Shown: in pieces, positions 5,684 to 64,000 of the stretch
Numbering within the stretch: the first letter of the stretch is position 1
How the letters are laid out: the number at the start of each line of letters is the position of its first letter
Origin: Methanobacteriales archaeon HGW-Methanobacteriales-1
GTDB taxonomy: Archaea; Methanobacteriota; Methanobacteria; Methanobacteriales; Methanobacteriaceae
Assembly: GCA_002839705.1 (NCBI GenBank)
Contig: PGYO01000002.1
Coordinates: forward strand, 62,001 to 126,000
Length of the DNA stretch: 64,000 nucleotides
Reading direction: 5' to 3'
Notes under the pieces: model-generated
Seen by the model: the letters and a program-made list of their open reading frames with translations, nothing else
What the model was told of the DNA's origin: nothing
Databases searched by the model: none
Position numbers and translations under genes: made by a program

Positions 5684-5803
5684 ATTAAAAAAGTCCTAAA
5701 ATATGTTCATCAGTAAATCTTTCTTTAATTTAAATATTTTAATTATTGAATAAAATAAAAATCCTAAAATAAAAAAATAAGTATTTTTAAGAATAATTTA
5801 AAA

Positions 5804-6064: not shown

Positions 6065-6357
6065 GTTTTAACCTCCGTATGAGAATTGTAATATTTTAAT
6101 CTATTTAATTTAGTACAATATTTCTATCAAGAATTTAATTAATGACTATTTACATTTATAATCATTTGATTATTCCTTTAAAGAAATTTTAGTACTTATT
6201 TTTATTCAATGTTTTTATAATTCCCATAGAAATTATATAATTGTTTTTATTTGCTCTTTTTGAATAAATACTTATCTTTAAATTAGTTTTTATTAGTCCT
6301 TAATAAATTGAATAAAAATAAAAAATAATGAATAATTAATTGAAAATTAAAAAGAAA

Positions 6358-7275: not shown

Positions 7276-7649
7276 TTTATCACTGAGGATTATTATTTGA
7301 GATTTTATGTATTGTAAGATTTTAAATTATATTGTAATTTAATATTATAATCTAATTATTTTCACTTGTAATCTACTTTTGATTTATTTATTATACTATT
7401 TTATACCCATATGATCATAAATATATTTTAATAGTTTAATTCAAATTCATAAATCGAATTTTTGTAGGTTCTCAACTATTCATAATCTTAAATTTATCTT
7501 AATTAATCATATAATAATAAGATATTTGCTAATCAATATATAAACCATGAGAATATGATATATTAATTCCATAACTTTTCTCTGAAAAACAAATTCTCAA
7601 ATATTTTGATAAATAATATGAGAATGTTTTTAGTAAGACCGGTGATATA
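7276..7649. other. Spacer between divergent sppA and aroK
   Basis: A 374-base AT-rich spacer between divergent genes. On the plus strand AATATATAAAC at 7535-7545 is a good archaeal TATA box for the aroK operon. An imperfect inverted repeat, ATTCTCAAATATT at 7593-7605 and AATATGAGAAT at 7615-7625, lies between that TATA box and the aroK start. I see no gene here. Confidence 0.5.
7535..7545 (+). promoter_or_regulatory. Probable TATA box of the aroK-chorismate mutase-rps17e operon
   Basis: AATATATAAAC on the plus strand, about 105 nt before the TTG start of aroK, matches the archaeal TATA consensus. Transcription would begin near 7570, leaving a leader that contains the inverted repeat at 7593-7625. 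The call rests on sequence match and position only. Confidence 0.4.
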
Positions 7650-8507
7650 TTGAAAAAAACAGTTAGATCTCCAGGATCAGCTACAATTATAAACGCCATT
7701 TCAACTGGGAGTGGTTCTGCCTTTGGTATTCAACTTTATGTAACTGCAGAAGTTCAATTAACATCTTCTGAAATTGAATGTACTTCTGAAAGGCGAGTTA
7801 ATCCCAAACTAATGGAAATTTGTGTAAATAAAGTTATTCAACACTATTCTATTGATACCGGAGTAAAAGTTCATACAGATTCTACTTTGCCGGTGGCTTC
7901 TGGACTTTCAAGTAGTAGTGCCACCTCAAACGCTGTAGTAATGGCCACATCCAGTTTAATTGCTGAAGAATTTGACCTAAAACCAATGAATGACATGGAA
8001 ATCCTAAATACGGCTATTGATGCTTCATTAGATGCTGGAGTTACTATAACGGGTGCATTCGATGATGCCAGTGCTTCCTACTTTGGAGGACTTACCATAA
8101 CCAATAATCTGGAAAGAGAAATTATCCAGAGAAATGAAATGGAAAAACAAAACATATTAATATATATGCCTGACAGAAAGTCACTGACCGCACAATCCAA
8201 TGTTAATAGGATGAAACTTTTATCACCGCTGGTAGATATGGCCTATAAAAAAGCCATTCAGGGAGATATTTATAAAGCACTCACCTTAAATGGAATATTG
8301 TATAGTGCAGCACTTGGATTTGATTCAAACATTGCTCTCGATGCATTAGAAGCTGGTGCACTTGCATCCGGTTTATCTGGAACTGGTCCGTCCTTTGTGG
8401 CGGTGGTTAATGATGAATGTAACGATAGGGTTCATGAAGCTTTGAATAATTATCCTGGAAGAGTTATTGCTACACAAGTAGATAATAATGGGACCAAGGT
8501 GATATAA
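7650..8507 (+). CDS. aroK: Archaeal shikimate kinase (GHMP family)
   Basis: Phosphorylates shikimate with ATP in the chorismate pathway. This is the archaeal GHMP-kinase type, unrelated to bacterial AroK. The N-terminus [14 protein letters not shown] and the ATP loop [16 protein letters not shown] at about residues 88-103 are diagnostic, and the C-terminal [13 protein letters not shown] is the third GHMP motif. Length 285 is typical. The start is a TTG at 7650 behind CCGGTGAT. The stop overlaps the next start by one base (TAATG), so translation is coupled to chorismate mutase. aroA lies 46 kb away. Confidence 0.94.
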
Positions 8508-8803
8508 TGGATGAATCCCAGGCACAAAAGCTTCTTCAAGAATCAAGAGAAAAGATTGATATTATTGATACTGAAATACTTACTTTAATCAGTGAAAGAA
8601 CTGCTCTGGCAAAAAAAATCATCAATGCCAAAGTTATTTTAGGTATGGAGATTCAAGATAAGAAGCGAGAAGAACATATTCACATGAAAACTCGCAAAAT
8701 TGCCAGAGAATTTCAAATTGATGAAGATATGCTCAGTCAAATAATGAAAATATTGACGGACATAAATAAAAAAGAACAAGAACAATTGTTAAGGAGGAAA
8801 TAA
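8507..8803 (+). CDS. Chorismate mutase (AroQ class)
   Basis: A 98-residue all-helical AroQ-type chorismate mutase that converts chorismate to prephenate for Phe and Tyr synthesis. The N-terminal helix has the family pattern [20 protein letters not shown], with the active-site arginine near residue 14, then KKIINAK and a third helix. There is no regulatory or dehydratase domain. It begins within the aroK stop codon and is followed after one base by rps17e, making a tight three-gene operon. Confidence 0.92.
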
Positions 8804-8804
8804 A

Positions 8805-9002
8805 ATGGGAAATATAAGAACTTCACACGTAAAAAGATTGTCTAAAGAACTAATCGAAACTCACCAAGGTAAATTTACCACGGATTTTGATGAAAACAAA
8901 AAACTGGTAGAAGAGTTTTCAACTGTAAGTACCAAGCACTTACGAAACAAAATCGCAGGATATGTCACTCGATTAGTTAGAAACGAAGCAAAACAAGCTT
9001 AA
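8805..9002 (+). CDS. rps17e: 30S ribosomal protein S17e
   Basis: A 65-residue archaeal/eukaryotic-type small-subunit protein, short like other archaeal S17e proteins. It starts [18 protein letters not shown] and ends in a basic tail ([20 protein letters not shown]). AAGGAGG lies immediately upstream, at the end of the chorismate mutase gene, which is one base away. Cotranscription with aroK and chorismate mutase links aromatic amino acid synthesis to a ribosomal protein. Confidence 0.95.
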
Positions 9003-9028
9003 TTAACTTAAGCGTAGTTTTATAATTT

Positions 9029-9065
9029 ATTTGCCTAATATTTGATTTTATCAATTCAGGCAAAT
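9029..9065 (+). terminator. Hairpin after rps17e
   Basis: ATTTGCCT at 9029-9036 pairs with AGGCAAAT at 9058-9065, and TTGA/TCAA can extend the inner stem. It sits 27 nt after the rps17e stop. No long T-run follows at once, so it may be a 3'-end stabiliser instead of a true terminator. Confidence 0.35.
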
Positions 9066-9296
9066 ATGATTTAAAACATATAATAATTTTTACTAATCTA
9101 TTAATCATTTTTTTATTGGTTTAAAAATAATTTTAAGCTTTTAATAAGGTTAATAATTATATTTATTTAAAATTATAACTATAATTTAACATATCTACTT
9201 AGATTTTATAATTTTTATATAATTCATTTACAAATTTTACATTAATTTACAAAGTTTATAATAATAAATTATTAGTCACCAAGGTTGTGAAGGTTA

Positions 9297-10517
9297 ATGG
9301 AATTAATAGTGACCAAATTCGGAGGAACATCTATAGGAAACGGTAAACGGATAAAAAAAGCAGCTCAAGCAGTGGTCAATGAGTACATGAAGGGAAAGAA
9401 GGTTGTGGTGGTTGTTTCTGCCATTAATAAGACTACTGATGAACTGCTCCATATAGTTGATGAAGCTATGGAGGATGCCGTTACCGAAAAACAACTGGCA
9501 GAAATTGTTTCTATGGGTGAAATGACCAGTGTACGCATATTTGCTTCTGCAATAGAGTCATTAGGAGTAAAATCCGAATATATAGATCCTTTTATGGACC
9601 AATGGCCTATCATAACTGATAATAATCTTTTAAGTGCTAAAGTAGATTTTAAAGCTACAGAAGATAAATCACTGGAACTTATGAAAATGATGGACCAGGG
9701 AATCATTCCCGTGGTCTGTGGATTTTTAGGAAGAGATCCTCATGGTTACATAACTACTTTAGGAAGGGGAGGAAGTGACATAACAGCTTTCCTTTTAGGG
9801 CACTGCCTTAATGCGGATGATGTTATAATTGTCACGGATGTAGGTGGAGTAATGTCTACAGACCCTAACAAGCTACAAAGTGCCCAGAAACTGGATAAAA
9901 TTTCTGTCGAAGAAATGCGAGATCTGGCCACGCACGGTGCCCAAGTACTCCATCCTCACGCCTTGAAATACAAGGATCCTAAAATTAATGCAAAAATCAT
10001 TGGTTTTGAACATGGAGATCTTTCTGCTCATGGGACAGAAATTTTAGGTCCCTCAAAAAATGAAATGCTTAAAACAACCACTTTAAATTCAGAACCTATT
10101 TCTGTCATTGCGGTGGTTGGGGAAGAAATACTCAATAAACCCGGAGTTCTAGCAGAGCTAACTGATATACTGTCTGAAAATGAAATCAATATATTTGGTA
10201 TTTCTACTGGCCAGAATTCAATAACTTTATTTGTTAACAAAAAACACGCTGATGATGCCCATCGGATATTACACGATGTAGTGGTGAAAAACGATAATTT
10301 AAGTTCTCTTTCATTGGGAAGAGAAATAGCAATGATTAGCATTGCCAGTCCGGATTTTATTGATACACCAGGAATTATATCGGATATTACAGAGCCTCTG
10401 AGAGCAAATGATCTGAATATTGTTGAAATATCATCTTCACAAACATCAGTTGTTATTTTTGTAGAATGGAAGGATGGCGAAAAAGCTTATGAATTTGTAA
10501 GGAGTGTCTTGGAATGA
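9297..10517 (+). CDS. lysC: Aspartate kinase
   Basis: Phosphorylates aspartate, the first step to lysine, threonine and methionine. Length is 406 residues. The kinase domain opens with [11 protein letters not shown] at residues 5-15, and the aspartate/ATP site [12 protein letters not shown] is near residue 155. Two ACT domains follow (about 265-335 and 345-405), the likely site of end-product inhibition. The start ATG at 9297 follows GAAGGTTA. The stop overlaps the dapA start by four bases, so the two are translationally coupled. Confidence 0.95.
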
Positions 10518-11407
10518 GTTTTGAAGGTACTATTGTGGCCATGGTGACTCCATTTACCTCAGAAGATGAGGTAGATGAAGAGGGCATGCGCGAAAACATA
10601 AATTATCTAATAGAAAATGGTGTGGATGGTATTCTGGTTGCAGGAACCACGGGTGAATCAGCAACCATTACCCACGAAGAACAAAGGAACATGATTGATG
10701 TTCTAATTGACGAGGTAAATGGAAGGGTTAAAACCATTGCTGGTGCAGGCAGCAACTCGACCAAAGAAGCCTTAAGCCTAGTTAAATACGCTGAAAATTC
10801 TGGAGCAGACGCTGCTCTTGTTATTACGCCTTATTATAATAAACCACAGCCTCATGGTCTGGTAGAACATTATAAAATCTTAGCAGAATCTACAGAAGTT
10901 CCCATAATTGTTTATAATGTTCCATCTCGAACTGGAACTGATATTGACGTGGAATCTATTGGACAAATTGCAGGCATTGACAATATTGTGGCCATAAAAG
11001 AAGCCAATCCCGATATGGACAAAGTTTCTATGATTTACAGGAAACTCCTGGATTTGGGATTGGAAGATGAGTTCAATATTTTATCTGGAAATGATGATCT
11101 TACACTTCCTATGATTTCCATGGGGGCCAAAGGTGTTATTTCTGTAGTGGCCAATGTTGACCCGGCTAGAATGAGTCAGATGGTTAATCAAGCTTTGGAA
11201 GGAGATTTTAATGCGGCTGCCCAGACCCACTATGAATTATATGAACTTATGAAAGCTTTATTTGTAGAAAGCAATCCAGTACCTTCTAAAGAGTGCTTGA
11301 ATTTAATGGGAAGGCCAGCAGGTCATGTCAGAATGCCTCTTGCTCCTTTAAAAGAGGAAAGCAAAGAAAAACTCGCTGCAGCTTTAAAAGATCTTTCTTT
11401 AATTTAA
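10514..11407 (+). CDS. dapA: 4-hydroxy-tetrahydrodipicolinate synthase
   Basis: Condenses pyruvate with aspartate semialdehyde in lysine synthesis; a TIM-barrel class I aldolase of 297 residues. Visible signatures are [16 protein letters not shown] at about residues 41-56, the catalytic tyrosine in YYNKPQPHG and [11 protein letters not shown], and the Schiff-base lysine in [13 protein letters not shown] at 10514 lies inside the lysC stop (ATGA overlap). It is followed by a 473-base spacer before dapB, so the pathway is split into at least two transcription units. Confidence 0.96.
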
Positions 11408-11880
11408 AATCTTTTCATTGATTTTTTTAAAGGATTTTTTTAAGACTTTTCCTTAATTTAATTAGATTTCTTTTTTTAATTTTTTCTTCATCTTTTTTGT
11501 AATTAAATTTGAATTAATTTATTTTATTTACATTATCAAAATAGATTAATTTGATAATAAAACTTTTTAAGTAGATTATAAAGATAATTTAATGAATCAA
11601 GACGATTCTATCAATTTCAAATTTAATATATTAATTATATCAAGTTGAAAATAAAAATGAGCATATTTTGAGAAGAGAAGTTAATTCTTATAAATAAAAG
11701 TATTTTACAAAAACTATTAAACAAATTATTTACCAAATTTAATATAAAAAATCTAATATAAAATTAAATAATTCAATATAAATTCATTTGGCAATTTTAT
11801 TATAGTTTTTATTCATTGGAAACTTTAATATTCAATAAATATTTTAAATAATTAACTATTATCTTCATTGGAGTGATAAA
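11408..11880. other. AT-rich spacer between dapA and dapB
   Basis: A 473-base spacer with several oligo-T runs directly after dapA (about 11425-11500), which would suit archaeal T-tract termination. The rest is AT-rich with no convincing open frame or RNA. GGAGTGATAA just before 11881 is the dapB ribosome-binding site. Any dapB promoter must lie here, but many AT-rich stretches could serve. Confidence 0.4.
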
Positions 11881-12702
11881 ATGATAAAAGTGGCAGTAAC
11901 CGGTGCATGTGGAAGAATGGGTTCTAAAATAATAAAAACTATTCTACAACAGGAAGATATGGAAGTAGTAGCAGCTATAGAAGCTCCTCAAAGTCCTTTA
12001 GAAGGTAAAGATGTGGGTGAAGCAATAGGAGTAGGTCCGCTCGGTGTAAAAATTACCGCAGCAGAAAATTTAGCTAAAGCCCTAAAGGAAAGTAGGGCCC
12101 AAGTCCTGGTGGACTTTACCATAGCCACTGCAGCCATAAAAACCATAAAAACCACGGCTAGTTGCGGTGTAAGTCTGATAGTAGGTACCACTGGCTTTTC
12201 AGAAGAACAACTAGTCGAAATAAAAGATTCCGTTTCTGAGAATAATGTTAAAGCAGTTATTTCTCCCAATATGGCTATTGGGGTCAATGTATTCTTTAAA
12301 ATTCTCAAGGATTTAGCTCCGATTCTAGCAGATTATGATGTGGAGATAATCGAGGCCCATCACAAGCATAAAAAGGACTCTCCATCTGGAACGGCGGTTA
12401 GAGCATTTGAAATCATTTCTGAAGAAACTGATAGAAATCCTGTGGATGTAGGAGTTTATGGAAGACATGGCCTGATAGGTGAGCGTACTAAAGATGAAAT
12501 CGGAGTTCACGCTGTTAGAGGAGGAGACATTGTCGGTGACCATACAGTTATCTTTGCTGGTGAGGGTGAAAGACTGGAAATTATCCACCGGGCCCATAGC
12601 AGACAATCATTTGTCAGTGGAGTCATAAAAGCCATCAGATTCATTCCAACTGCTGAGGAAGGAAAAATTAATGACATGGCTGATGTATTAGGTATTAAAT
12701 GA
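11881..12702 (+). CDS. dapB: 4-hydroxy-tetrahydrodipicolinate reductase
   Basis: NAD(P)H-dependent reductase of lysine synthesis, 273 residues. The Rossmann motif VTGACGRMGSKI is at residues 6-17, the dinucleotide loop VGTTGFSEEQ follows, and the catalytic EAHHKHKKDSPSGTA motif is at about residues 157-171. The start is the ATG at 11881 with GGAGTGAT upstream. asd follows 75 nt downstream on the same strand, consistent with one dapB-asd unit. Confidence 0.96.
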   Translation: MIKVAVTGACGRMGSKIIKTILQQEDMEVVAAIEAPQSPLEGKDVGEAIGVGPLGVKITAAENLAKALKESRAQVLVDFTIATAAIKTIKTTASCGVSLIVGTTGFSEEQLVEIKDSVSENNVKAVISPNMAIGVNVFFKILKDLAPILADYDVEIIEAHHKHKKDSPSGTAVRAFEIISEETDRNPVDVGVYGRHGLIGERTKDEIGVHAVRGGDIVGDHTVIFAGEGERLEIIHRAHSRQSFVSGVIKAIRFIPTAEEGKINDMADVLGIK

Positions 12703-12777
12703 ATTAATATTCAATAGGTATATAAAATACATATTAATAAAACATAATTAAAGATAGCAATTATTTTGGTGATAAAA

Positions 12778-13821
12778 ATGGTAAATGTAGGTATTCTTGG
12801 TGCAACAGGAATGGTAGGCCAAAGATTCATTGAATTACTGGCTGAACATCCAAAATTTGAAATTACAGCATTGACAGCATCTCAAAGATCAGCAGGAAAA
12901 AAATATGAAGATGCCACAACCTGGTATCTGGACAGTAACATGCCGGAGTCTGTAAAAAATATCACCGTAGTTGATACTGACCCATCTCAAGTTGATGATG
13001 TAGATATAGTCTTTTCAGCACTGCCTACAGAAAATGCTGCTATTGTCGAACCAAAATTCGCTGAAAAACATATTGTAGCATCTAATGCCAGTGCCATGAG
13101 AATGGAAGATGATATTCCTCTAGTTATTCCTGAAGTAAATCCGGAATATCTAGATTTAATAGAAATCCAGCAGAAAAATAGGGGATGGGATGGATTCATA
13201 GTCACTAATCCTAACTGTTCTACTATTGCCCTTACCATCACTTTAAAACCAATTTACGACCAGTTTGATATTAAAAGAGTTTATGTATCTACCATGCAGG
13301 CTGTTTCAGGTGCTGGATATAATGGGGTGCCTTCTATGGCTATTGTAGATAATTTAGTTCCATTTATTGGTGGGGAAGAAGAAAAAATGGAAACCGAAAC
13401 GCAGCACCTTCTGGGAAGTCTGGAAGATGGTGTGGTTACTCCTGCATCATTTGGAGTAAGTGCTTCCTGTCACCGAGTAGCAGTAATAGATGGACACACT
13501 GAAGCTGTTTTCATTGAAACAGAAGATAAATGTGACATTGATGAAATTCATGCTACTATGGATCAGTTCCGAGGTATGCCTCAGAAATTAGATCTTTACT
13601 CAGCCCCTGAAAAACCTATCGTGATTCGTTCTGAAGATAACCGACCTCAACCTCGTATGGACCGTAATCAGGGTGATGGAATGGCAGTAACTGTAGGAAG
13701 ATTAAGAGAAGATGCTGCATTTGAAAATAGTTTTAGATATGTTTTAGTGGGCCACAATACTATTCGTGGAGCTGCTGGAGCATCCATACTCAATGCAGAA
13801 TTAATTAATGAAATCATATAA
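12778..13821 (+). CDS. asd: Aspartate-semialdehyde dehydrogenase
   Basis: Reduces aspartyl phosphate to aspartate semialdehyde, the branch point for lysine, threonine and methionine. It is the archaeal/fungal-type enzyme of 347 residues. NAD(P) motif [13 protein letters not shown] is at the N-terminus; the active-site cysteine is in [10 protein letters not shown]; the late histidine is in [14 protein letters not shown] chose the ATG at 12778 because TTGGTGAT just before it is the ribosome-binding site; the in-frame TTG at 12766 would place that site inside the gene. Confidence 0.95.
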
Positions 13822-13920
13822 ATTTACATTTAATCATGATTTCATAATTTATTTTTTTATAATTAATTATTTTTATAAGGATTATAAATCATTTATAAGA
13901 GTATTTAAAAGGAGAATTCC

Positions 13921-14490
13921 ATGTTTGAGGTTATTGGGGCTAATTTATACCACATGGATCTTGATGTATTCTATTTTTTCAATTTATACAGTTATAATTT
14001 AATTTTAGATTTATTAATGCCTTTAATCACTATTGCTGGAACACAAATATTTTGGATTATAATTTGTATCGGGTTGTATGTTTTTGGCGCTCAGAAAGGG
14101 AAACAAACAGCTTTTCTTTGTATAATTGCATTATTCATTGCTTTTTTTGCCAGTGAAATATTGAAATTTATTTTGGCCCGTCCTAGACCCTATGAAGTTC
14201 TAAGTGGTGCCAGACATTTAATGGATGTTGCAGGTTACTCATTACCCTCGGGTCATACTACTACTGCTTTTGCTGCTTTTACCGTTATAGGAATTAAATA
14301 TCGGTATTTGTATATTTTTTTAGGATTTGCAGTGTTAGTTGCAATTTCCAGAATTTACATGGGGCTCCATTATCCTTCTGATGTATTGGCTGGTGCTCTT
14401 TTAGGAATATTTTGTTCATTAATAGTTTTAAAGTATGAAGGAAAACTTATAAGAACTAAAAACAAGATATTAAATAAAAATAGTCAGTAA
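13921..14490 (+). CDS. PAP2-family membrane phosphatase
   Basis: A 189-residue integral membrane phosphatase of the PAP2 superfamily with about five helices. The three catalytic motifs are present: KFILARPRP (about 81-89), PSGHTTTAFA (about 111-120) and SRIYMGLHYPSD (about 142-153). Likely substrates are polyprenyl pyrophosphates or lipid phosphates at the outer membrane face; for archaea, recycling of the lipid carrier for glycan synthesis is plausible. The start ATG at 13921 follows AAGGAGAATTCC. It stands alone after asd. Confidence 0.9.
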   Translation: MFEVIGANLYHMDLDVFYFFNLYSYNLILDLLMPLITIAGTQIFWIIICIGLYVFGAQKGKQTAFLCIIALFIAFFASEILKFILARPRPYEVLSGARHLMDVAGYSLPSGHTTTAFAAFTVIGIKYRYLYIFLGFAVLVAISRIYMGLHYPSDVLAGALLGIFCSLIVLKYEGKLIRTKNKILNKNSQ

Positions 14491-14569
14491 AGCTTAAACA
14501 AACTTAAGATAATTGTTATAATAACTTATAAAAATATAATAAATTGTCATAAACGATTCAAGTGATAGC

Positions 14570-15091
14570 ATGCGATTCATGAAAGACCCGGAAAAAGATC
14601 AACTAAAACGTCTGGTAAAGGCATGCATGTTAGAGATAAGCAAACTTAAGATGGATCTCAAAAAATGCAGTGAGACCAACCAAGAATGTAAAAAAGTCAC
14701 GCAATTACAACATGAAATCGAAAAAAAGGAAGAGCGTATTAAAGAGCTGGAAAATTTTCTCAAAGAAAAGGATAAAACTATTAATAATCTTAAAAATGAT
14801 TTAAGCGATAAAAATGATTATATTAAAGATTTAAAAGAGATAAAGGTGTATTTCGAGGCTTTGACTGCAAAACCAAAAAGAGACCTTACTTCTTTCCAAT
14901 CTCAAGTTTATTTATTATTACCTTCAGAAAAGTCAAATACTCATAAAATGCACGCTTTTATTAAAAAAGTAGGATTCAGTGAACTTTCTTATGATAATAT
15001 GTTCCATATATTACGTAATCTTGAAAGAAAGGGATATTTCAAGTCTTATCAAATAAATGAAGAAACAATCTGGGAGAAAATCCAAAAATAA
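14570..15091 (+). CDS. Coiled-coil protein with possible winged-helix C-terminus
   Basis: I do not recognise this 173-residue protein. Residues about 10-100 form a strongly charged coiled coil (repeated Lys/Glu/Leu heptads, IEKKEERIKELENFLKEKD). The last 70 residues look globular: a helix-rich segment with a final ERKGYFKSYQINEETIW that resembles the wing of a winged-helix domain. There is no signal or membrane segment. The start ATG at 14570 follows GTGATAGC; a second ATG at 14579 is possible. A DNA-binding or structural role is only a guess. Confidence 0.6.
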   Translation: MRFMKDPEKDQLKRLVKACMLEISKLKMDLKKCSETNQECKKVTQLQHEIEKKEERIKELENFLKEKDKTINNLKNDLSDKNDYIKDLKEIKVYFEALTAKPKRDLTSFQSQVYLLLPSEKSNTHKMHAFIKKVGFSELSYDNMFHILRNLERKGYFKSYQINEETIWEKIQK

Positions 15092-15179
15092 TATAAGAAT
15101 TAATTTATTTTATTTTAATATATATTATATTTTATATCCTTTATTTTACTTAATTTATCTATTAGCTATTTTAATCATT

Positions 15180-15872
15180 TTATATTATCCATTTAATGAA
15201 AGCTCGTACGGGTGAAGCTTCGCATTTAATAGGCAGAGGAATACAGAAAAACTCTAGATTTTCCGTGTTGTGTGGTATTAATTCCAGATTTTTAAGGTTT
15301 TCTACTATCCATATGTCATTAAGAAGTAATTTTTCATGAATTAAGGTTTTTCCTAAAGTATCAACACTGGGAGCATCTATACCTAACCCAGTTATCTCTT
15401 TTTTAATAAGAAATTCGGCTGATTCTTCTGATAAATAGGGATTTTGAGTGAAATAATTATTTAAACCCCAATTTTTGCTCCAGTTGGTTTTTACTACTAC
15501 TATATCTCCTTTTTTAACATTTTTAAATTCTGAGACATTAATTTGTCTGTATGAACTTCCTTTTTTTGCTTTCAAAACATCTTTTGATGAATTATCTAAA
15601 ATATTAACAGGTTTATTTAAACTATTTGTTGTATCAATTAGATTTAGAGGACCTATTAGTTCATAAAGTTTTATTTCATCAATTTTTCTTCCATCAGAAT
15701 AAAAATGGTAGGGAGAATCAATATGTGTGCCGGTATGCAGTCCAGTTTTTATTAAAGAAATTGTAAATCCATCTTTTTCACTATTTAAAATTTCTTCTAG
15801 TGAAAAATCAGGATCCTGTGGAAATACTGGCATTTTATCTACCAGTGTTTGGCTTAAATCTAAAATTTTCAA
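15180..15872 (-). CDS. Cyclase family protein (kynurenine formamidase-like)
   Basis: A 230-residue metal-dependent hydrolase of the cyclase superfamily (Pfam Cyclase). The metal-binding signature HTGTHIDSPYHF is at about residues 46-57, preceded by LDLSQTLVDKMPVFPQDP. The late acidic region IDAPSVDT and IHEKLL also matches the family. Members hydrolyse formyl-kynurenine or isatin; the substrate here is unknown and no tryptophan-degradation gene adjoins. The start is the ATG at 15872. Confidence 0.88.
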   Translation of the reverse strand: MKILDLSQTLVDKMPVFPQDPDFSLEEILNSEKDGFTISLIKTGLHTGTHIDSPYHFYSDGRKIDEIKLYELIGPLNLIDTTNSLNKPVNILDNSSKDVLKAKKGSSYRQINVSEFKNVKKGDIVVVKTNWSKNWGLNNYFTQNPYLSEESAEFLIKKEITGLGIDAPSVDTLGKTLIHEKLLLNDIWIVENLKNLELIPHNTENLEFFCIPLPIKCEASPVRAFIKWII

Positions 15873-15955
15873 TTATTACCCTCTAATTAAATGTATTATT
15901 TTTAAAATAAAAATATGGAGAATTATTTATGATCATTAAATTAATTTTGCACGGA

Positions 15956-17311
15956 TTATAATGAATACTGTATTAATTTTTCAGTAATTTTTGATTTTTT
16001 AGGATTCCAGCTTCTTATAACTCCGAATGAGTTTAAATAACTAGAACTATCTGCAGTTACCCAGCCTCTACCTTTAATCCATATTTGGGCCCAAACATGG
16101 GTGTAAACATTTCCACTAACAACAAATTTGCAGGTACCTCGAACATACCTTGCAGGAAGGCCAGATGTACGCGCCAGGGCTACTATTAAGTGTGCTTGAT
16201 CTGCACAGTTACCTAAGCGCTTTTTTAAAGTATTTGCTGCGCCGTATTTTGTTCGATAATAAAAAGAATAATCTACATGGTCTCTTACCCAGTTGAATAT
16301 CTTGGTTCCAGTCTCATAGGGCGTACTGCCTTTCAGATTGGTGGCTACATAAACGATATTGGCATTAGTAATTTGGCAGTATTTAGTTTCTTTAAGATAT
16401 TTACGCATAGTTGATGGAATATACCATCTAGAATTTTTCAAGGATTTATAATATTTTAATTTAGAACTAATATATTTATATTTTGATTGAAGGCTATTGT
16501 ATTGAATTTGAAGCTTTTTTAAAGTTGTAGTGTTTTTAGTTTTCTTAATAGTTGCAGCTAACTTACCCTTACTAATCTTTGTTGATTTCAATCGTGAATA
16601 TAAACTGGATATGGTTTTATCAACATAACTAGAACTGAATTTACGGGCAGTTTTTGGTATTTGACTGACTAAATATACACTTTTTGGCATTTTTCCATAA
16701 ATTTTATAGTATCTAGCAATTTTGGAGAACATATAAATCATATTATAGTAATCCAGATTTCCATGGGTCGAACTAATGTATGGAAGGATTTTATGATAGG
16801 TATACATATAATTACTAGTTTTTAGGGCCAGTGCACGGTATTGACTTAGGGTATAACTGGTGGAAAATCTGGAAACACTATATGTTCGTCCAGATACATT
16901 AAAAAGAGTTACATTATTAGATCCAGTTATAAAAGAACTTACGGCATAGAGATATTGGGAAATACTAATTACTTTAACTTCCGTGTTTACGGTGTCGGGA
17001 AGTTTCTTATTTTTCTCAATATAATTAGCAACTTGTGTACTGGAATTAAGGATTTCAGATTTGCTTAGACTTGAATCGGGTTCATCACTTGAATTGGTGA
17101 TATTTGTAATATTGGTGTTATTGGTGCTGGAGTTTACAATTCCCTCATCTGCTTGAACAGTTTCTATTGAAGCAGCACTTAGAATAAAAATTGCCATAAA
17201 AAAAACTATTAAAGTTGATTTTGAAATATTATTAAGAATTTCTAATCTTCTTAAAAAAGAATAATCCTTTAAATCTATCTTTTTTAGATTTTTTTCAATT
17301 TTAGCTTTCAT
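15956..17311 (-). CDS. Secreted transglutaminase-like cysteine peptidase with pseudomurein-binding repeats
   Basis: A 451-residue exported protein. A hydrophobic signal/anchor spans about residues 33-52, ending near VQA-DEG. A short linker rich in Asn-X-Ser/Thr sequons follows (about 59-75). Two or three repeats then resemble pseudomurein-binding repeats (YIEKNKKLPD with ISISQYLYAVSSFI; IYGKMPKSVYLVSQ). A coiled-coil-like stretch leads to the catalytic domain with Cys369 (RLGNCADQAH), His405 (THVWAQIW) and Asp421 (TADSSS). This plan resembles phage and archaeal pseudomurein endoisopeptidases (PeiW/PeiP), which cut the peptide bridges of pseudomurein. A host autolysin used in growth or division is the likely role. 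Start ATG at 17311. Confidence 0.8.
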   Translation of the reverse strand: MKAKIEKNLKKIDLKDYSFLRRLEILNNISKSTLIVFFMAIFILSAASIETVQADEGIVNSSTNNTNITNITNSSDEPDSSLSKSEILNSSTQVANYIEKNKKLPDTVNTEVKVISISQYLYAVSSFITGSNNVTLFNVSGRTYSVSRFSTSYTLSQYRALALKTSNYMYTYHKILPYISSTHGNLDYYNMIYMFSKIARYYKIYGKMPKSVYLVSQIPKTARKFSSSYVDKTISSLYSRLKSTKISKGKLAATIKKTKNTTTLKKLQIQYNSLQSKYKYISSKLKYYKSLKNSRWYIPSTMRKYLKETKYCQITNANIVYVATNLKGSTPYETGTKIFNWVRDHVDYSFYYRTKYGAANTLKKRLGNCADQAHLIVALARTSGLPARYVRGTCKFVVSGNVYTHVWAQIWIKGRGWVTADSSSYLNSFGVIRSWNPKKSKITEKLIQYSL

Positions 17312-57484: not shown

Positions 57485-57910
57485 TCTTATTAACTCTTGC
57501 CAATCACATCAAATTATTTTTAAATAGAAAAAAATGCAGTAAACCATTTTAATTTCATATTTATAGATAAACTCTTTTTTGATACTTTTTTATTTCTTTT
57601 GTTTTCAGTTTATTTTTAAAAGTTCGATTTATAATTGTTATGATACTATAATACTACAATTTCTGTGTTTATTTTAAAATATATCTTTAAAAAATATTGT
57701 ATAATTTATTTAATACATTTATAATAAAATTAAAATAAAATATCATACAAAGATCCCAAATTTGTTCTATTATATAAGTTTTTTCTATTAATTCAAATAG
57801 AAAAGTATTAAAAGAGGATTAATGATAATACGAAGTAATACATGAATTTAAAATGGATAATATGACATGAAAAAAGTAATACATAGGTAGTAATACATAG
57901 GTGATTTTGT
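57485..57910. other. Spacer and leader upstream of the exported hydrogenase
   Basis: A 426-base spacer. CTATTATATAAGTT at 57767-57780 is a good TATA box, with a start near 57805. In the leader, three copies of AGTAATACAT lie at 57834-57843, 57875-57884 and 57889-57898; the last two are continued by AGG and are 14 bases apart. A seven-codon open frame, ATG at 57822 to TGA at 57845, has GAGGA just before it. GGTGAT at 57900-57905 is the hydrogenase ribosome-binding site. Confidence 0.55.
57768..57780 (+). promoter_or_regulatory. Probable promoter of the hydrogenase-Tat cluster
   Basis: TATTATATAAGTT on the plus strand matches the archaeal TATA consensus, about 135 bases before the small-subunit start. 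A start near 57805 would include the repeats and the mini open frame in the leader. The call rests on sequence alone. Confidence 0.45.
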
Positions 57911-58846
57911 ATGAAACAAGAATTTAAAAAAATATTGGATCATCCAATAGATAGGAGAACATTCCTGAAAGCTGTAGGTGCAGGAACCGTGGCAACACTG
58001 TTTGGTGGACAATCAACCATGGAAGAAGTCTTTGCAGCTTCTCCAAAGGTAGGAATAGTCCAGCTTGGAACTTGTGCAGGATGTCAGGTTTCCTTAACAG
58101 AATTTGGGATAGATATGAGGTACATTAGCTCTTCAAACCCAACAATTGCCGACATACTACCAACAATAGATATAAAATATGCACCACTTTTAGTAGATGT
58201 TCTAGCTGAATCATTTGAAAATATTAGCTCCCTTGATATTTGTATAATTGAGGGTGTTGCAGGCCCCACAGTTGAGTCTTCAGAACTTCTGGATCACGCC
58301 AGATCGATTTCAACTAAGGTTGTTGCATTAGGAGACTGTGCATCATACGGCGGAGTCCCTGGTTTGAATTCAAGAAAAGGTCTTTTAGATCTTCACCCAA
58401 TAAACGAGGTAATATCAGTAGATGCATACATCAGAGGATGTCCACCACAACCAGAACAAATATGGTACATGGTAACTGGTGGAGCTATTGGCGAAGCAAT
58501 AAAACCTGGAAGAGTATGTGATCCATGTATCTATGATCCTGAAGGCCCTCAAGCAAGTGAACTAGGCCAGCCCGGATGTAAAAAACATCTCGGATGTCAG
58601 GGTCACGATAGTCCATGGCAATGTGGAGCTACAAGAAGCACTGGTGGAAAAGCACCATGTACACTGGTTGATGATATTTGTATAGGATGTTACAGAGACC
58701 AGTATCCCGTAACACCATATTATGTTAAAGGTCAAGTACAAATGAGAAATCGATATGGGGCTGGAAACCAAACCCCTAGTGGAAATACAACAAACGCAAC
58801 CACAAATACAACACTAAATAAAACAGGAATGATAGGCAAGAGGTGA
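57911..58846 (+). CDS. Exported [NiFe] hydrogenase small subunit, Tat signal
   Basis: Electron-transfer subunit of an exported uptake/evolving hydrogenase, 311 residues. The Tat signal has the twin arginine at residues 15-16 (DRRTFLKAVGAG), a hydrophobic run to 33 and a likely cleavage after FAA near 43. Twelve cysteines fit three Fe-S clusters: CAGC at 55-58, GDC and RGCPPQ for the proximal cluster; eight more in the C-terminal half, ending DDICIGC. It lacks the C-terminal membrane anchor of many group 1 small subunits. The last 27 residues are a flexible tail with five Asn-X-Thr sequons. It resembles the secreted hydrogenase of the M. maripaludis MIC island in context. Confidence 0.92.
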   Translation: MKQEFKKILDHPIDRRTFLKAVGAGTVATLFGGQSTMEEVFAASPKVGIVQLGTCAGCQVSLTEFGIDMRYISSSNPTIADILPTIDIKYAPLLVDVLAESFENISSLDICIIEGVAGPTVESSELLDHARSISTKVVALGDCASYGGVPGLNSRKGLLDLHPINEVISVDAYIRGCPPQPEQIWYMVTGGAIGEAIKPGRVCDPCIYDPEGPQASELGQPGCKKHLGCQGHDSPWQCGATRSTGGKAPCTLVDDICIGCYRDQYPVTPYYVKGQVQMRNRYGAGNQTPSGNTTNATTNTTLNKTGMIGKR

Positions 58847-58851
58847 TTTAA

Positions 58852-60351
58852 ATGGCAGTTGAAATAAAACCCGTAACAAGAATTGAAGGCGATGGAAAAC
58901 TTGAACTAGAAACCTACTTGGACGAAGCTGGAAAATTAAAAGTAAAAAATCTTCTAACACCAAATGACGGAACTATAAATTTACCAACAGATAATGCTGC
59001 AAGATATCCAAAATTCTGTGTCACAGAATTTAGAGGATTTGAAAAATTTGCAGTTGGAGAACAGCCAGACACTGTTACAAAGCTAGTTCCAAGAATATGC
59101 GGTGTTTGCCCAGTGCCTCAAAACATGGCGAGTACATGTGCAGTTGAGGCTGCTTATGGCACCAATATAGTTAACAATGCAAAAGCAGTGCGAAGATTCA
59201 TGCTTGCAGTGCATACAGTACACAGTCATCTACTGCACTTTTTTGTACTAGCTGGAAAGGACATTCTACCACAGAGTATAATAGATCAAGAACTTCCTAA
59301 CATAATTAGTGCCCACAATAAAGCACAGGCTTGTGTAGCAGTATTTGGAGGAAAACCTGTTCATCCTGCATCATGTATTCCTGGAGGACAGACTAAAGTT
59401 CCAAACAGTACAGAAATTGGACAGATCAGAGCACGAATGCAAGAAATACAAAGTTATGCAACTTCCCTTTTAGGTGCATTAAAAGGTGCACTATTGAACC
59501 TACCAAACGACTTTGGTGTAAGACCTAGTAACTACTTGAGTTCTGGTGTTCCTTTCTATAGTGGTGTTTCTGGATCATTTTCATACTTTGGATCATCAGG
59601 AGGAGTTGTAATCAGAAATCCTTCAAATCCAACTGACTTCAATTCAGCTACTATAGTTCCATTTAACCCAGCGAATGTGAAAGAAGAAATCATAACACCC
59701 TACGGAAGCGTTATAAATCTTCCAACAAACTACAGTTACACTAAAAGACCATATTACACCCACAACGGCGTAAACTATGTATGTGAAGTAGGACCTCTTG
59801 CAAGACTCGCAGTAGCATATAAGGCTGGTGACAGCGTTGTAAAATCAACTGTAGATAGCATTGCAAGTAATTGGGGTGTTGGTGCAAACGATATATTATC
59901 CCCATCAACCAGGAACAGACATATAACCCGGCTTATAGAAACCGTGATAATGATTGACAGAATTTTAAATGGCGGTTGGTCAAACATAGCCCAAGTAGAT
60001 AGTTACTCACCTCCAAACGAGAAAGCCGGAACTGGTATGGGTATAGTTGAAGCACCTCGTGGAACATTGATACACAGCATAAAAGTAGGATCTGATTTAA
60101 AAACTGCATCATATGACTGTATGGTACCGACTACAGCAAACACTGGAGCTATGGAAGAAGCTGTTGCAGATGATCTCGTGGAGATAAGACCTGAAACAAT
60201 AGAATTACTAGGGCGTGAACCAACAGAAGACGAAAAACTGCTTTTAGGAGATGCAAGCCGAAGCATAAGAGGATTTGATCCATGTTGTTCATGTTCCTCT
60301 CACATGATAGAAATTAAAAACCCAGATGGCACTAAAAAACGCCACCTTTGA
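58852..60351 (+). CDS. Exported [NiFe] hydrogenase large subunit
   Basis: Catalytic subunit carrying the Ni-Fe centre, 499 residues. Nickel ligands are C83 and C86 in RICGVCPVPQN and the C-terminal pair in DPCCSCSSH (about residues 476-484). A 15-residue extension follows His484 and should be cleaved by the maturation protease encoded next. There is no signal peptide: it would be carried out with the small subunit after folding, as in Tat-exported hydrogenases. GAGGTGAT precedes the ATG at 58852, six bases after the small-subunit stop. Confidence 0.93.
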   Translation: MAVEIKPVTRIEGDGKLELETYLDEAGKLKVKNLLTPNDGTINLPTDNAARYPKFCVTEFRGFEKFAVGEQPDTVTKLVPRICGVCPVPQNMASTCAVEAAYGTNIVNNAKAVRRFMLAVHTVHSHLLHFFVLAGKDILPQSIIDQELPNIISAHNKAQACVAVFGGKPVHPASCIPGGQTKVPNSTEIGQIRARMQEIQSYATSLLGALKGALLNLPNDFGVRPSNYLSSGVPFYSGVSGSFSYFGSSGGVVIRNPSNPTDFNSATIVPFNPANVKEEIITPYGSVINLPTNYSYTKRPYYTHNGVNYVCEVGPLARLAVAYKAGDSVVKSTVDSIASNWGVGANDILSPSTRNRHITRLIETVIMIDRILNGGWSNIAQVDSYSPPNEKAGTGMGIVEAPRGTLIHSIKVGSDLKTASYDCMVPTTANTGAMEEAVADDLVEIRPETIELLGREPTEDEKLLLGDASRSIRGFDPCCSCSSHMIEIKNPDGTKKRHL

Positions 60352-60369
60352 TTTATTTTTTGTGGAAAA

Positions 60370-60852
60370 ATGATCTGTGTAGTTGGCTTTGGAAATTTAT
60401 TGCTTGGAGATGATGGAGTAGGAATAAGAATAATCCAGAGACTTAAAATGATGAATCTTCCAAATTATGTGGATGTAATAGATGCTGGAGCCTGTGGGGC
60501 AATCCTATTCAGCCTAATTGAAAAATATGACAAAATAATTGTGGTGGACGCTGTTAGATCCAATCATGAAATTGAAAGAATCATTTTAATGAAGGCATCT
60601 GAAATAATGAAAGCAAATGAAAGATATTATTTTTCTGGACATGATTTAAATCTGTTAGATATATTTTCAATGATAGAATCTATCTATTCAGACAATCTAT
60701 TGGATAAAATATGTATTATTGGCGTTAAAATCCAAAAAATTGAAGAATCATTAGAACTTTCAGAAAAAATTATGAAAAGTATGGAAAAAACTGTGAATTT
60801 GATTACAACTAACTTCCTAAATGAGGGTGATGAAATATGGAAGAACCACTGA
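60370..60852 (+). CDS. Hydrogenase maturation protease
   Basis: A 160-residue HyaD/HycI-type endopeptidase that trims the large-subunit C-terminus once nickel is in place. The start VVGFGNLLLGDDGVGIRI is diagnostic. The three metal ligands correspond to Asp15 (glutamate in HybD), the aspartate in IIVVDAVRS and the histidine in FSGHDLNLLD. It probably processes only the large subunit encoded upstream. It overlaps tatC by 16 bases, which ties export to maturation. Confidence 0.93.
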   Translation: MICVVGFGNLLLGDDGVGIRIIQRLKMMNLPNYVDVIDAGACGAILFSLIEKYDKIIVVDAVRSNHEIERIILMKASEIMKANERYYFSGHDLNLLDIFSMIESIYSDNLLDKICIIGVKIQKIEESLELSEKIMKSMEKTVNLITTNFLNEGDEIWKNH

Positions 60853-61577
60853 TTGCGCATTTCGACGAACTGAGAAGTAGATTAATAAGAATTGCTATTG
60901 TAATTATTGCAATATCTGCTGTTACGTTCCCATTTGCCAATCAAATTCTTATTAGAATTCAGAATGATTTACTACCTGAAGGAATGCGTTTAATTGTAAT
61001 AGGTCCATTAGAAGCCATATGGGCACAAATAGAAGTATGTATGCTTGTTGCATTTGTAATTGCTCTCCCATATATCATCTATGAAACTATGAAATTCTTA
61101 AAACCCGCTCTTAAAGGTTCTGAGAATTCTTTTTTAATAAAAACAATACCTCCCGCATTGATACTTTTTGGAATTGGAGCTATATTTACTTACAAAATTG
61201 TGCTTGTAGTAACACTTAAATTCCTTATTGGTTATGCAACATCCTCAGGTGTTATACCTCTTTTAAGTTTAGGAGATTTCATATCATTTATACTCCTAAT
61301 GATTTTGGTATTTGGGCTACTCTTTGAATTACCCCTTGTTTGTTGTGCTCTTGCATCACTTGATCTAATTGATTCTGATACTCTTACAGGTAACAGGAAA
61401 GGAGCTTACGTCGGTATTTTGATTATTGCAGGAATTTTAACACCTGACCCCACACCATTTACTCAGCTTATTGTCACATTACCAATGATCATTCTCTTTG
61501 AAATAAGTGTTCTTTTGATTAAATACATGCACAGAGATAAGAAAATGGAGGTTACAAATGATGCATCCGTTGGTTAA
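60837..61577 (+). CDS. tatC: Twin-arginine translocase TatC
   Basis: Core membrane receptor of the Tat pathway, 246 residues with six transmembrane helices. The N-terminal HFDELRSRLIRI motif that binds the twin arginine is at about residues 8-19. MKFLKPALKGSENSFL, the FGLLFELPLVC helix and the periplasmic-to-helix ILTPDPTPFTQLIVTLPM motif are all conserved. The start ATG at 60837 lies inside the protease gene. With tatA next to it, the pair would export the folded hydrogenase. Confidence 0.94.
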   Translation: MEEPLIAHFDELRSRLIRIAIVIIAISAVTFPFANQILIRIQNDLLPEGMRLIVIGPLEAIWAQIEVCMLVAFVIALPYIIYETMKFLKPALKGSENSFLIKTIPPALILFGIGAIFTYKIVLVVTLKFLIGYATSSGVIPLLSLGDFISFILLMILVFGLLFELPLVCCALASLDLIDSDTLTGNRKGAYVGILIIAGILTPDPTPFTQLIVTLPMIILFEISVLLIKYMHRDKKMEVTNDASVG

Positions 61578-61589
61578 GGAGGTGAAAAA

Positions 61590-61859
61590 ATGATTGGTGG
61601 ACTTGGAATGCCAGAACTTTTAATAATCCTTTTTGTGATCCTGCTCCTTTTTGGTTCAAAGAAACTTCCAGAACTTGCAAAAGGAATGGGTAAAGCATTG
61701 GGAGAGTTTAAAAGAACTCAACGTGAGTCAGAGTTTAAAATAAAAGAAGAACCAAAAGACGCAGAGGTAATAGAGAAAAAAGAGGAAATAAAAACTGAAT
61801 CTAAAGAAGAAACAGTACAAACAACTGAAACAACTGAAAAATCAGAAACAAAAGCATGA
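61590..61859 (+). CDS. tatA: Sec-independent translocase TatA
   Basis: Pore-forming Tat subunit, 89 residues. The short N-terminal helix ([15 protein letters not shown], residues 8-22) is followed by the [22 protein letters not shown] amphipathic helix that marks TatA/E. The tail from residue 43 is a charged Glu/Lys/Thr run. AAGGAGGTGAA is a strong ribosome-binding site for the ATG at 61590. It lies 12 bases after tatC. Confidence 0.95.
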
Positions 61860-61861
61860 AA

Positions 61862-61965
61862 AATAGAATATTCTTTAATGAACGTTTAAACTGTTTATTA
61901 GTTTGTCTATAATCCAATAGAATATTCTTTAATGAACGTTTAAACTGTTTATTAGTTTGTCTATA
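61862..61965 (+). repeat. Two tandem copies of a 50-bp sequence after tatA
   Basis: Bases 61862-61911 and 61916-61965 are identical over 50 positions, a period of 54. The copies start two bases after the tatA stop, and the block fills most of the 161-base gap before the carbonic anhydrase gene. Only two copies exist, so it is not a CRISPR. It looks like a recent duplication or a regulatory or recombination site. Confidence 0.9.
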
Positions 61966-62020
61966 TAATTTTTTAGTCTATGTACTATTTATAGCATACA
62001 ATTAAACAGAGGTTAACAAA

Positions 62021-62683
62021 ATGAATAACAAATACCTTATCTTAATTTCAGTTTGTCTGGCCATCATTGTATTGGCCACATCTTTATATGGGCTTTCTAA
62101 AACCCCAAACATTTCTACAAGCCCAATAACATCATGGAATTCACAAATTACGTCTCCACAAATCAGTGCCACTTCATTTGTGGATCCTTCAGCCAGAGTA
62201 ATCGGAGACGTGACTATTGGAAGTAATGTTTTCATTGGTCCATTTGCATCAGTGCGTGGTGATGAGGGATCACCTATTTATATTGGTGATAGTTCAAACA
62301 TCCAAGATGGTGTGATTATACATGGTCTTAAAGACCCCCGAGTAACTGTTGGAGGTAAAAACTATTCTGTCTACGTTGGAAAAGAAGTTTCAATGGCACA
62401 TGGCAGTATAATTCACGGTCCTGTCTTTATTGACGACAAAAGTTTTATTGGCTTTGGTGCAGTGATATTCAAAGCAAATATAGGTAAAAATTGTGTGATA
62501 CTACACAATGCAGTGGTGACAAATAACGTAAATATAGCCGATGGTAAATATGTACCAGCCGGTGCAATAATCGACGACCAAGCAAAAGCAGATGCACTAA
62601 CAGAAGTTCCAGAAACTCTCAAAGAACTACCTCCAGACGTAGTAAAAGTCAATAAAGAACTGACAAACACATACAAACGCTAA
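62021..62683 (+). CDS. Exported gamma-class carbonic anhydrase
   Basis: Left-handed beta-helix carbonic anhydrase, 220 residues, interconverting CO2 and bicarbonate. An N-terminal signal/anchor (residues 5-24) and a Ser/Thr-rich linker precede the helix, so it is outside the cell. The metal ligands are His101 (DGVIIHG), His127 and His132 (SMAHGSIIHGPV), matching the Cam pattern H81, H117, H122, but the first gap is ten residues shorter because Cam's acidic loop with Glu84 is missing. RGDE at 79-82 holds the conserved arginine. GAGGTTAAC precedes the ATG at 62021. It ends a unit with the hydrogenase-Tat genes. Confidence 0.9.
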   Translation: MNNKYLILISVCLAIIVLATSLYGLSKTPNISTSPITSWNSQITSPQISATSFVDPSARVIGDVTIGSNVFIGPFASVRGDEGSPIYIGDSSNIQDGVIIHGLKDPRVTVGGKNYSVYVGKEVSMAHGSIIHGPVFIDDKSFIGFGAVIFKANIGKNCVILHNAVVTNNVNIADGKYVPAGAIIDDQAKADALTEVPETLKELPPDVVKVNKELTNTYKR

Positions 62684-62759
62684 TGGGATATTAACTCAGT
62701 TTAACATGTTCCCCCCATTATTTTTTTTAATGATAAATGAGTTAATAATATCCCATTAG
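62680..62759 (+). terminator. Long hairpin closing the hydrogenase-Tat-carbonic anhydrase unit
   Basis: A 19-base arm at 62680-62698 and a 22-base arm at 62738-62759 are inverted repeats with one three-base bulge, around a loop of about 39 bases. A T-rich stretch follows at about 62760-62773. It begins at the last coding bases of the carbonic anhydrase gene. It could be a terminator, a 3' stabiliser, or a scar of an inserted element. Confidence 0.5.
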
Positions 62760-63277
62760 TTTTTTAGTTTTTTTGGCATGATCTTATTTTAATTGACTTT
62801 AAAAGTGAATGAACTTCGTAAATAATAGATTTGATAATAAAAATTCTAAAACATCTCAGAATATAATTCTCAAAAAAAGCCCCCTAAAAAAAGGATGATT
62901 CAAAAATTATTAATTAGATAAGACTTTTTTATAACAATGCATTTAAAGTATTTATAACCGATAGTATCTGCTTAAACAGTAAAATTATACCTTAAAATAT
63001 GTTTTTCCTAATCTAAACTTTAAATAAATAACTGATAAAAAAAATTAATCTCAAAATTCAAGATACACTATTACTAAATTCAGTATCCTTACTTAAATTT
63101 GTTAGATATATATACATTGAACAATTAATAATATGACTAGAATCTGATTAATATCATAATCAAAAATAAATAATATTTGGATTTCTATTTACATATAATA
63201 ATTTTCATTATTAAAAAATAAGTTATATACTTTTTCAAAATAATAGTGTTAGCAGCCATGATTTTGGTTTTGTTATT
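62760..63277. other. Spacer between carbonic anhydrase and the PAS protein
   Basis: About 520 AT-rich bases without a convincing gene. GTTATATACT at 63222-63231 is a good TATA box about 50 bases before the PAS gene start. I found no tRNA, repeat or integrase remnant in this stretch. Confidence 0.4.
63221..63231 (+). promoter_or_regulatory. Probable TATA box of the second PAS protein gene
   Basis: AGTTATATACT on the plus strand is an archaeal-type TATA element. A start near 63252 would give a leader of about 26 nt to the ATG at 63278, which has no clear ribosome-binding site. Confidence 0.4.
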
Positions 63278-64000
63278 ATGCAGTATAAAAAAAAGAAAAA
63301 ACGTCAAGATGTAGATGAATCTAAGAAATCAGAAGACATCTTTGTAGAAGATGATAATTTCAATGAAAAAATGCATTTAAATGAGGTTTTTAAAGAATCT
63401 GAAGGAAGATATAAGTTTCCTATTAATAATTCTAAAGTTCCAATGAACATCTTCTCTGAAGATATGAAGATTTTGGATGTAAATAAAAGACTAATTCAAC
63501 TCTCAGGATATTCTAAAAAAGAGCTTTTATCCATGAAATTGAAAGATATATACCCTGAATCAGCTGAAATCTTGAGTGAAGGAATAAAAAAGATAATTGA
63601 AGCTAAAAAATTTCCTATTTTTGAAGTTAATTTACATACTAAAAAGGGGAAGATTATACCTGTTGAAATAGTTGTCACTGAACTTAAAAATTATGGTCCA
63701 AAAAGTGTTTTCCAAGGTACTGTGAGAGATAGTGACGCGCTTATACAAATAGAAAAAGCTTTAACTGATATTGAAAAAAGTTTTAAAACGTTAGTTGAGA
63801 CTTCCTTTGATATTATCCTGCTTTTTGATCGAGACTGCAGAACTCTTTATGTGAATCCAACAATTGAAAAGCTAAGTGGTATTCCTCCAGAGGATTTTAT
63901 TGGCAAAAAGTTTGTACAACTTGGTTTATCTGATGATTTAGTTAATCTGTATAAAGAGACTGTTTATAAAGTTTTTGAAACCAAAACCGATGATCGTGTT
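63278..64000 (+). CDS. PAS-domain sensor protein (partial, runs off the window)
   Basis: The first 241 codons of a PAS protein that continues past the window end. A lysine-rich N-terminus (MQYKKKKKRQDVDESKKS) leads to a first PAS at about residues 55-150 with LDVNKRLIQLSGYSKKELLS. A short helical linker follows. A second PAS begins near 165 (ETSFDIILLFDRDCRTLYVN). No membrane segment appears in the visible part. Its output domain cannot be seen. It is the second multi-PAS protein here, after the one at 28.2 kb. Confidence 0.85.
   Translation, partial: MQYKKKKKRQDVDESKKSEDIFVEDDNFNEKMHLNEVFKESEGRYKFPINNSKVPMNIFSEDMKILDVNKRLIQLSGYSKKELLSMKLKDIYPESAEILSEGIKKIIEAKKFPIFEVNLHTKKGKIIPVEIVVTELKNYGPKSVFQGTVRDSDALIQIEKALTDIEKSFKTLVETSFDIILLFDRDCRTLYVNPTIEKLSGIPPEDFIGKKFVQLGLSDDLVNLYKETVYKVFETKTDDRV

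Follow-up and report, generated by a model that had tools for sequence, protein, structure and literature searches.

FohE, a Cam-like gamma-carbonic anhydrase encoded in the MIC core of a Methanobacteriales archaeon

A gene for a carbonic anhydrase stands at the end of a gene cluster that encodes a Tat-signalled [NiFe]-hydrogenase. We examined this fohE locus in a 64,000-nucleotide stretch of a Methanobacteriales genome (contig PGYO01000002.1, hereafter the window) and asked what the product might do for the hydrogenase. Methanogens cause costly corrosion of steel, for which the MIC hydrogenase genes are so far the validated genetic link (PMC12667266). An earlier note on this DNA had taken the pairing of hydrogenase and gamma-carbonic anhydrase to be undescribed, and the enzyme to be perhaps a new accessory of the system. 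That claim was mistaken, since the pairing was published in 2018 and the protein was named FohE in 2025. Tsurumaru et al. (2018; PMC6181927) described MMOS7_11640, a gamma-carbonic anhydrase encoded in the 12-kb MIC island of Methanococcus maripaludis OS7. It carries a Sec signal and, along with both subunits of the hydrogenase, is one of only three proteins that proteomics found to be specific to the culture filtrate of the corrosive strain; the authors discussed it as supplying bicarbonate for FeCO3 (PMC6181927). The 2025 FEMS Microbes paper that introduced the name reported FohE in every one of the nine MIC cores then known, built a Cam-based model of it, remarked on Glu82, described a split form (FohE/FohE') in IM1, Yes71-06b and Yes49-02, and proposed that FohE localises FohB, besides having possible carbonic anhydrase activity (PMC12667266). 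A FohE-type gamma-carbonic anhydrase is also listed in PMC9698937. The fohE gene of the window is a new occurrence of this known pairing, and the value of the locus therefore lies in five further cores, in the evidence from selection and linkage, and in a prediction for low CO2. None of the five is recognisable among the nine cores listed in the 2025 paper (PMC12667266). New elements are the linkage in five of five genomes, purifying selection, a clade of its own near Cam and CcmM, terminator-like hairpins and an insertion site between nth and recJ.

The MIC core and its insertion site

The gene order fohB-fohA-fohD-tatC-tatA-fohE, all on one strand with fohE last, is that of the 'MIC core' of iron-corroding methanogens (Table 1). 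Pfam matches for the five neighbours confirm the membership of fohE in a hydrogenase-Tat unit that the earlier note had put forward, and the reading frame it described agrees exactly with the intact one found here. fohE lies directly downstream of fohA-fohD-tatC-tatA, and the order is identical in the four other cores (L004, L005, L089 and L090). Five N-X-S/T sequons lie in the C-terminal part of FohB (residues 286, 292, 295, 299 and 303).

Table 1. Features of the MIC core and of fohE, in window coordinates
Feature	Coordinates	Strand	Evidence or remark
fohB, MIC [NiFe]-hydrogenase small subunit; Tat signal, hydrophilic C-terminus	57911..58846	+	Pfam Oxidored_q6, NiFe_hyd_SSU_C, TAT_signal
fohA, MIC [NiFe]-hydrogenase large subunit	58852..60351	+	Pfam NiFeSe_Hases 4.7e-53
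fohD, hydrogenase maturation protease	60370..60852	+	Pfam HycI 3e-20; TIGR00072 above cut-off
tatC, 16-bp overlap with fohD	60837..61577	+	Pfam TatC 7.5e-55
tatA	61590..61859	+	Pfam TatA_B_E 4.6e-18
Perfect tandem duplication (54-bp unit, 1.9 copies) between tatA and fohE	61862..61965	+	
fohE, predicted exported Cam-type gamma-carbonic anhydrase, intact ORF, 220 aa	62021..62683	+	ORF, profile, PDB, alignment, model
fohE residues 3-25, predicted N-terminal export/anchor helix	62027..62095	+	AF2 helix 3-25
Glu82 codon (Cam Glu62)	62264..62266	+	Alignment, invariant column
His101 codon (Cam His81), first zinc ligand	62321..62323	+	Alignment
Lys104 codon, third residue past first zinc His, at the place of Cam Glu84	62330..62332	+	Alignment
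His127 codon (Cam His117), second zinc ligand	62399..62401	+	Alignment
His132 codon (Cam His122), third zinc ligand	62414..62416	+	Alignment
Asn211 codon (Cam Asn202)	62651..62653	+	Alignment
Long hairpin, then T tracts, at the fohE stop	62680..62773	+	-24 kcal/mol, z -5.5
PAS-domain protein, 850 aa, last gene of the inserted block, runs beyond the window end	63278..64000	+	Full length in L091

The gap between tatA and fohE measures 161 bp in the window and 91-226 bp across the five cores. Its 54-bp repeat is present in two copies in the window and three in the near-identical locus of nzgw21 (L004), and is absent from the other cores. The gap folds with a z of -3.3, which is due to this duplication, and a terminator scan of the window gave no terminator-like match within it. 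Terminator-like hairpins follow fohE in three genomes (z -5.5 in the window, -3.0 in L089 and -6.6 in L005), and from its sequence the hairpin in the window is likely to mark the transcription end of the MIC core. A scan for sigma-70-type promoters, which is ill-suited to an archaeon, performed no better than on shuffled sequences; candidate archaeal TATA boxes were seen by eye upstream of fohE in AT-rich DNA, but not all of the genomes conserve them.

In many relatives that lack FohA (for example G145, G149, G003, G001 and G010), nth and recJ are convergent and lie about 0.3 kb or less apart. In the window genome the distance is 8.4 kb, and the block between them, inserted exactly between the two convergent genes, consists of the MIC core and the PAS gene (window 57485-64000; L091 9483-17902). 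No description of this site was found in the available text of the two MIC papers (PMC6181927; PMC12667266). The MIC block and recJ of nzgw21 are 97-99.98% identical to those of the window genome, and the genes upstream about 67% (L004 ~5000-17250 compared with L091). A contig of G140 and one of UBA587 (G142), genomes assigned to different genera, share 99% identity over 7.2 kb that include the MIC core (L089 4295-11492; L090 5507-12689). In both genomes the core is accompanied by an additional nth, which matches the nth of the window at 91% identity, against 63-65% for the other nth of each genome. This pattern of sequence identity suggests that the MIC block and DNA on its flanks were recently transferred together; alternatively, the shared blocks may stem from MAG contigs that are chimeric or contaminated.

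Fold, active site and relatives of FohE

The fohE product matches the hexapeptide repeats of Pfam (3.1e-14) and, far above chance, the NCBIfam families for carbonic anhydrase (NF040597, 206.6 bits) and CcmM (NF053794, 209.9 bits), neither score reaching the equivalog cut-off of its model (380 and 550 bits, respectively). A PDB sequence search retrieved Cam with an E of ~3e-51 over residues 28-219. The AlphaFold2 model (pLDDT 89.8, pTM 0.81) superimposes on Cam at 1.3-1.6 Å and on CcmM in its oxidized, active form at 1.0-1.1 Å, so that Pfam, PDB search and model agree on the left-handed beta-helix of a gamma-carbonic anhydrase. The protein ends at residue 220, and the RbcS-like C-terminal repeats of CcmM are absent. 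Its N-terminus is a single hydrophobic helix in the model, with a hydropathy maximum of 2.5 in a 19-residue window, which is consistent with the predicted export that the earlier note had proposed.

That note had also described a Cam-like protein that keeps the three zinc histidines and lacks the acidic loop with Glu84, and both halves of this description stand. Eleven Cam active-site residues (W19, R59, D61, E62, N73, Q75, D76, H81, H117, H122 and N202) are retained in the alignment, and the catalytic set R59, D61, E62, N73, Q75, D76 and N202 is complete. A halophilic gamma-carbonic anhydrase gained activity once the E62, Q75 and N202 of Cam were introduced (PMC7199487), and FohE naturally has the equivalents of all three. 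Glu84, Glu88 and Glu89 are absent along with the loop, Tyr200 is replaced by Lys, and the motif at the first zinc histidine reads HGLK where Cam has HALE. The first and second zinc histidines are spaced by 27 residues, compared with 37 in Cam and 18 in a large group with a shorter loop; FohE thus lacks the CamH-type spacing, CamH being represented here by these 18-residue-loop homologues. Because the acidic loop with Glu84 is absent, we class FohE as a Cam-like gamma-carbonic anhydrase, the FohE of a MIC core, rather than as a canonical Cam, and we infer its catalysis and its assembly as a trimer. The lysine at the Glu84 position is not specific to FohE and is found in L006, L011, L012, L015 and L016 also. 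The missing glutamate is no proof of lost activity, since the CamH subclass lacks E84, Cam variants carrying Asp or His at this position are active (PMC7199487), and E84 is missing from several active gamma-carbonic anhydrases (PMC8000050). No measurement of FohE activity was found in the literature searched.

The tree unites four FohE sequences in a clade of their own (99/95) whose sister is L006 (98/93), and these together group with Cam and CcmM at 93/86, just below the star threshold; the separate gamma-carbonic anhydrase homologue of the window genome (L002) is a distant row. L006 (9953-10597 on MAG contig DYDG01000017.1, labelled Marinifilum) is a Cam homologue that shares with FohE the 27-residue loop with its Lys and is likely exported, but it differs in having a twin-arginine-like leader instead of a Sec-like one and in its identity to FohE of 50-52%, and no MIC hydrogenase or Tat genes were found near it. 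An exported-like Cam-type enzyme with this loop therefore exists outside the MIC core. The neighbours of L006 are ordinary housekeeping-like genes.

Amongst characterised proteins, Cam of Methanosarcina thermophila (1QRL, 1THJ) shares the fold (TM 0.84-0.90), the zinc ligands, W19, E62, Q75 and N202, but is 44% identical to FohE, which unlike Cam is linked to a hydrogenase. The N-terminal domain of CcmM from the beta-carboxysome (3KWC) has a loop of near-equal, intermediate length and a C-terminal helix, but it carries a Glu at position 84 (HGLE, loop and motif being compared with two cyanobacterial CcmM sequences), is followed by RbcS-like repeats and is intracellular. According to the published description, the FohE proteins of OS7 (MMOS7_11640) and Mic1c10 resemble that of the window in their position after tatA, an export signal, three zinc histidines, a Glu82 of the same number and a Loop 2 shorter than that of Cam; the window gene stands intact in a different host genome, in contrast to the split genes of IM1, Yes71-06b and Yes49-02 (PMC12667266). 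Several Cam-like genes lie directly after what look by eye like DASS- or SulP-type anion transporters (L008 1661-3770, L012 8523-10558 and L011 4214-6310), hinting at pairs of carbonic anhydrase and bicarbonate transporter.

Linkage, selection and the possible role of FohE

Of the 152 genomes of the class searched, five have FohA (E<=1e-60). The survey of related clusters that the earlier note had suggested found a linked FohE in all five, so in none is the carbonic anhydrase gene absent. Outside these genomes the sole gamma-carbonic anhydrase match at E<=1e-20 is one partial match of 46%. Pairwise dN/dS is 0.19-0.25 for fohE compared with 0.08-0.13 for fohA and fohB, and fohE is under purifying selection. 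No beta-class carbonic anhydrase (PF00484) was found in the window genome. The viral contigs searched contained no FohE-type enzyme, and among the best plasmid matches listed there were only CcmM, ordinary gamma-carbonic anhydrases and PaaY.

On balance we lean towards the reading that exported FohE, as part of the MIC core, hydrates CO2 locally and provides H+ for FohAB and HCO3- for FeCO3. FohE would cross the membrane, probably via Sec, and FohAB via the linked Tat system; once outside, FohE would form a trimer with a metal bound by three histidines between subunits and accelerate the reaction CO2 + H2O <-> HCO3- + H+. As FohAB draws on Fe(0) for electrons and uses up protons in making H2, the local pH would climb, and fast hydration would deliver protons to the hydrogenase and bicarbonate to FeCO3 and restrain this rise, the CO2 buffer keeping pace. 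With siderite as product, the computed overall balance is 4 Fe + 5 CO2 + 2 H2O -> 4 FeCO3 + CH4, so four-fifths of the CO2 must be hydrated. On enzyme cathodes with formate dehydrogenase, the local pH rises by about 2 units when carbonic anhydrase is left out, and added carbonic anhydrase holds this rise down through faster CO2 hydration (PMC13397495). If our explanation is right, the two systems are alike in that a redox enzyme consumes protons and the carbonic anhydrase at its side buffers the local pH, although the cathode is an engineered device with proteins unrelated to FohE and FohAB. We favour catalysis linked to the hydrogenase over its rivals because carbonic anhydrase residues are conserved, linkage is restricted to FohAB, and secretion has been published, for the OS7 orthologue only (PMC6181927); sequence, predicted fold, selection and the terminator-like hairpins after fohE lend this reading further support. 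As with catalysis, we infer the direction of the reaction and the benefit to the hydrogenase. The strongest point against this reading is the published split forms: the third zinc histidine would be lost in IM1 and the two Yes isolates (PMC12667266) and in a frameshifted copy of UBA587. The missing Glu84 and acidic loop and the replacement of Tyr200 by Lys also count against catalysis.

How much an enzyme could add depends on CO2, as a rough estimate indicates. It uses textbook constants, with k as 0.037 per s and D as 1.9e-5 cm2/s. By this estimate, which leaves out HCO3- as a proton donor, uncatalysed hydration would supply (in mol H+ per cm2 per s) 5.7e-9 at 6.8 mM CO2, 8.4e-10 at 1 mM and 8.4e-11 at 0.1 mM, and corrosion at 1 mm/yr would demand 8.9e-10. 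The supply at 6.8 mM is about six times this demand, so carbonic anhydrase may add little in CO2-rich cultures, and the estimate suggests that FohE matters only at low dissolved CO2. Any fohE phenotype is accordingly predicted to be confined to low dissolved CO2; with a small effect expected under 20% CO2 and a stronger one in CO2-poor water, an experiment at high CO2 could miss it.

A bolder proposal, which we put forward tentatively and with some doubt, is that FohE acts in nature as the pH-stat of an enzyme on a metal electrode, tuned by its lysine and by the lack of the Glu84 shuttle to pass protons to external buffer beside FohAB, and needed for fast corrosion at low CO2. If true, it would be the natural counterpart of the engineered cathode with dehydrogenase and carbonic anhydrase. 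Should FohE set the delivery of H+ and bicarbonate to the hydrogenase, the CO2 level and carbonic anhydrase inhibitors would become handles on corrosion, and the site that lacks Glu84 a test of proton shuttling in gamma-carbonic anhydrases.

It is unlikely, in our judgement, that the beneficiary is instead the inorganic carbon supply of the cell, with extracellular FohE interconverting HCO3- and CO2 and the hydrogenase not directly served. FeCO3 formation and rising pH would drain CO2, the reaction is reversible, carbon supply through bicarbonate uptake is suggested as one role in PMC6181927, and related bacterial Cam genes lie beside the anion-transporter-like genes noted above (L008, L011 and L012, by eye). 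However, save for the single partial match, FohE occurs only with FohAB among the 152 genomes, which speaks against a general carbon supply because such a role would not need the linkage, and the genome has the separate gamma-carbonic anhydrase homologue, with no obvious export signal (L002).

We give an equally low chance to a role of FohE in localising or modifying FohB, as proposed in PMC12667266; its target might be, for instance, the N-glycosylated tail of FohB, and any carbonic anhydrase activity would then be a side function or have disappeared. Sugar acyltransferases share the fold superfamily, FohB has the five C-terminal sequons listed above, and split FohE/FohE' persists in some Methanobacteria (PMC12667266), but the carbonic anhydrase residues of FohE are conserved and the tree places it among Cam and CcmM. 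Moreover, it is not obvious how an exported protein would obtain CoA or nucleotide sugars. That fohE is a passenger that rides with a mobile cluster and contributes little is improbable: its dN/dS exceeds that of fohA and fohB and broken copies exist (UBA587; PMC12667266), but it is under purifying selection, is kept in every core seen and was detected in the OS7 secretome (PMC6181927).

The fohE of UBA587 contig C3 has a 1-nt deletion just past the second zinc histidine codon (L090 13097-13120), and contig C1 (L014) opens with another fohE 3' end, which is in frame; with this end at a contig edge the assembly is ambiguous, and we did not accept the split gene as proof of a two-part protein. 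The position of the deletion fits the place of the published IM1-type split. An apparent gamma-carbonic anhydrase pseudogene with four stops (G000:C4) proved to be an alignment effect, since an ordinary 165-aa gamma-carbonic anhydrase homologue reads open there. An in-frame TAG in the fohA of G140 and UBA587 (L089 5882-7369; L090 9629-11116) was likewise discarded as a recoded codon: it lies within the C-terminal extension normally removed by the maturation protease and merely trims the tail by four residues.
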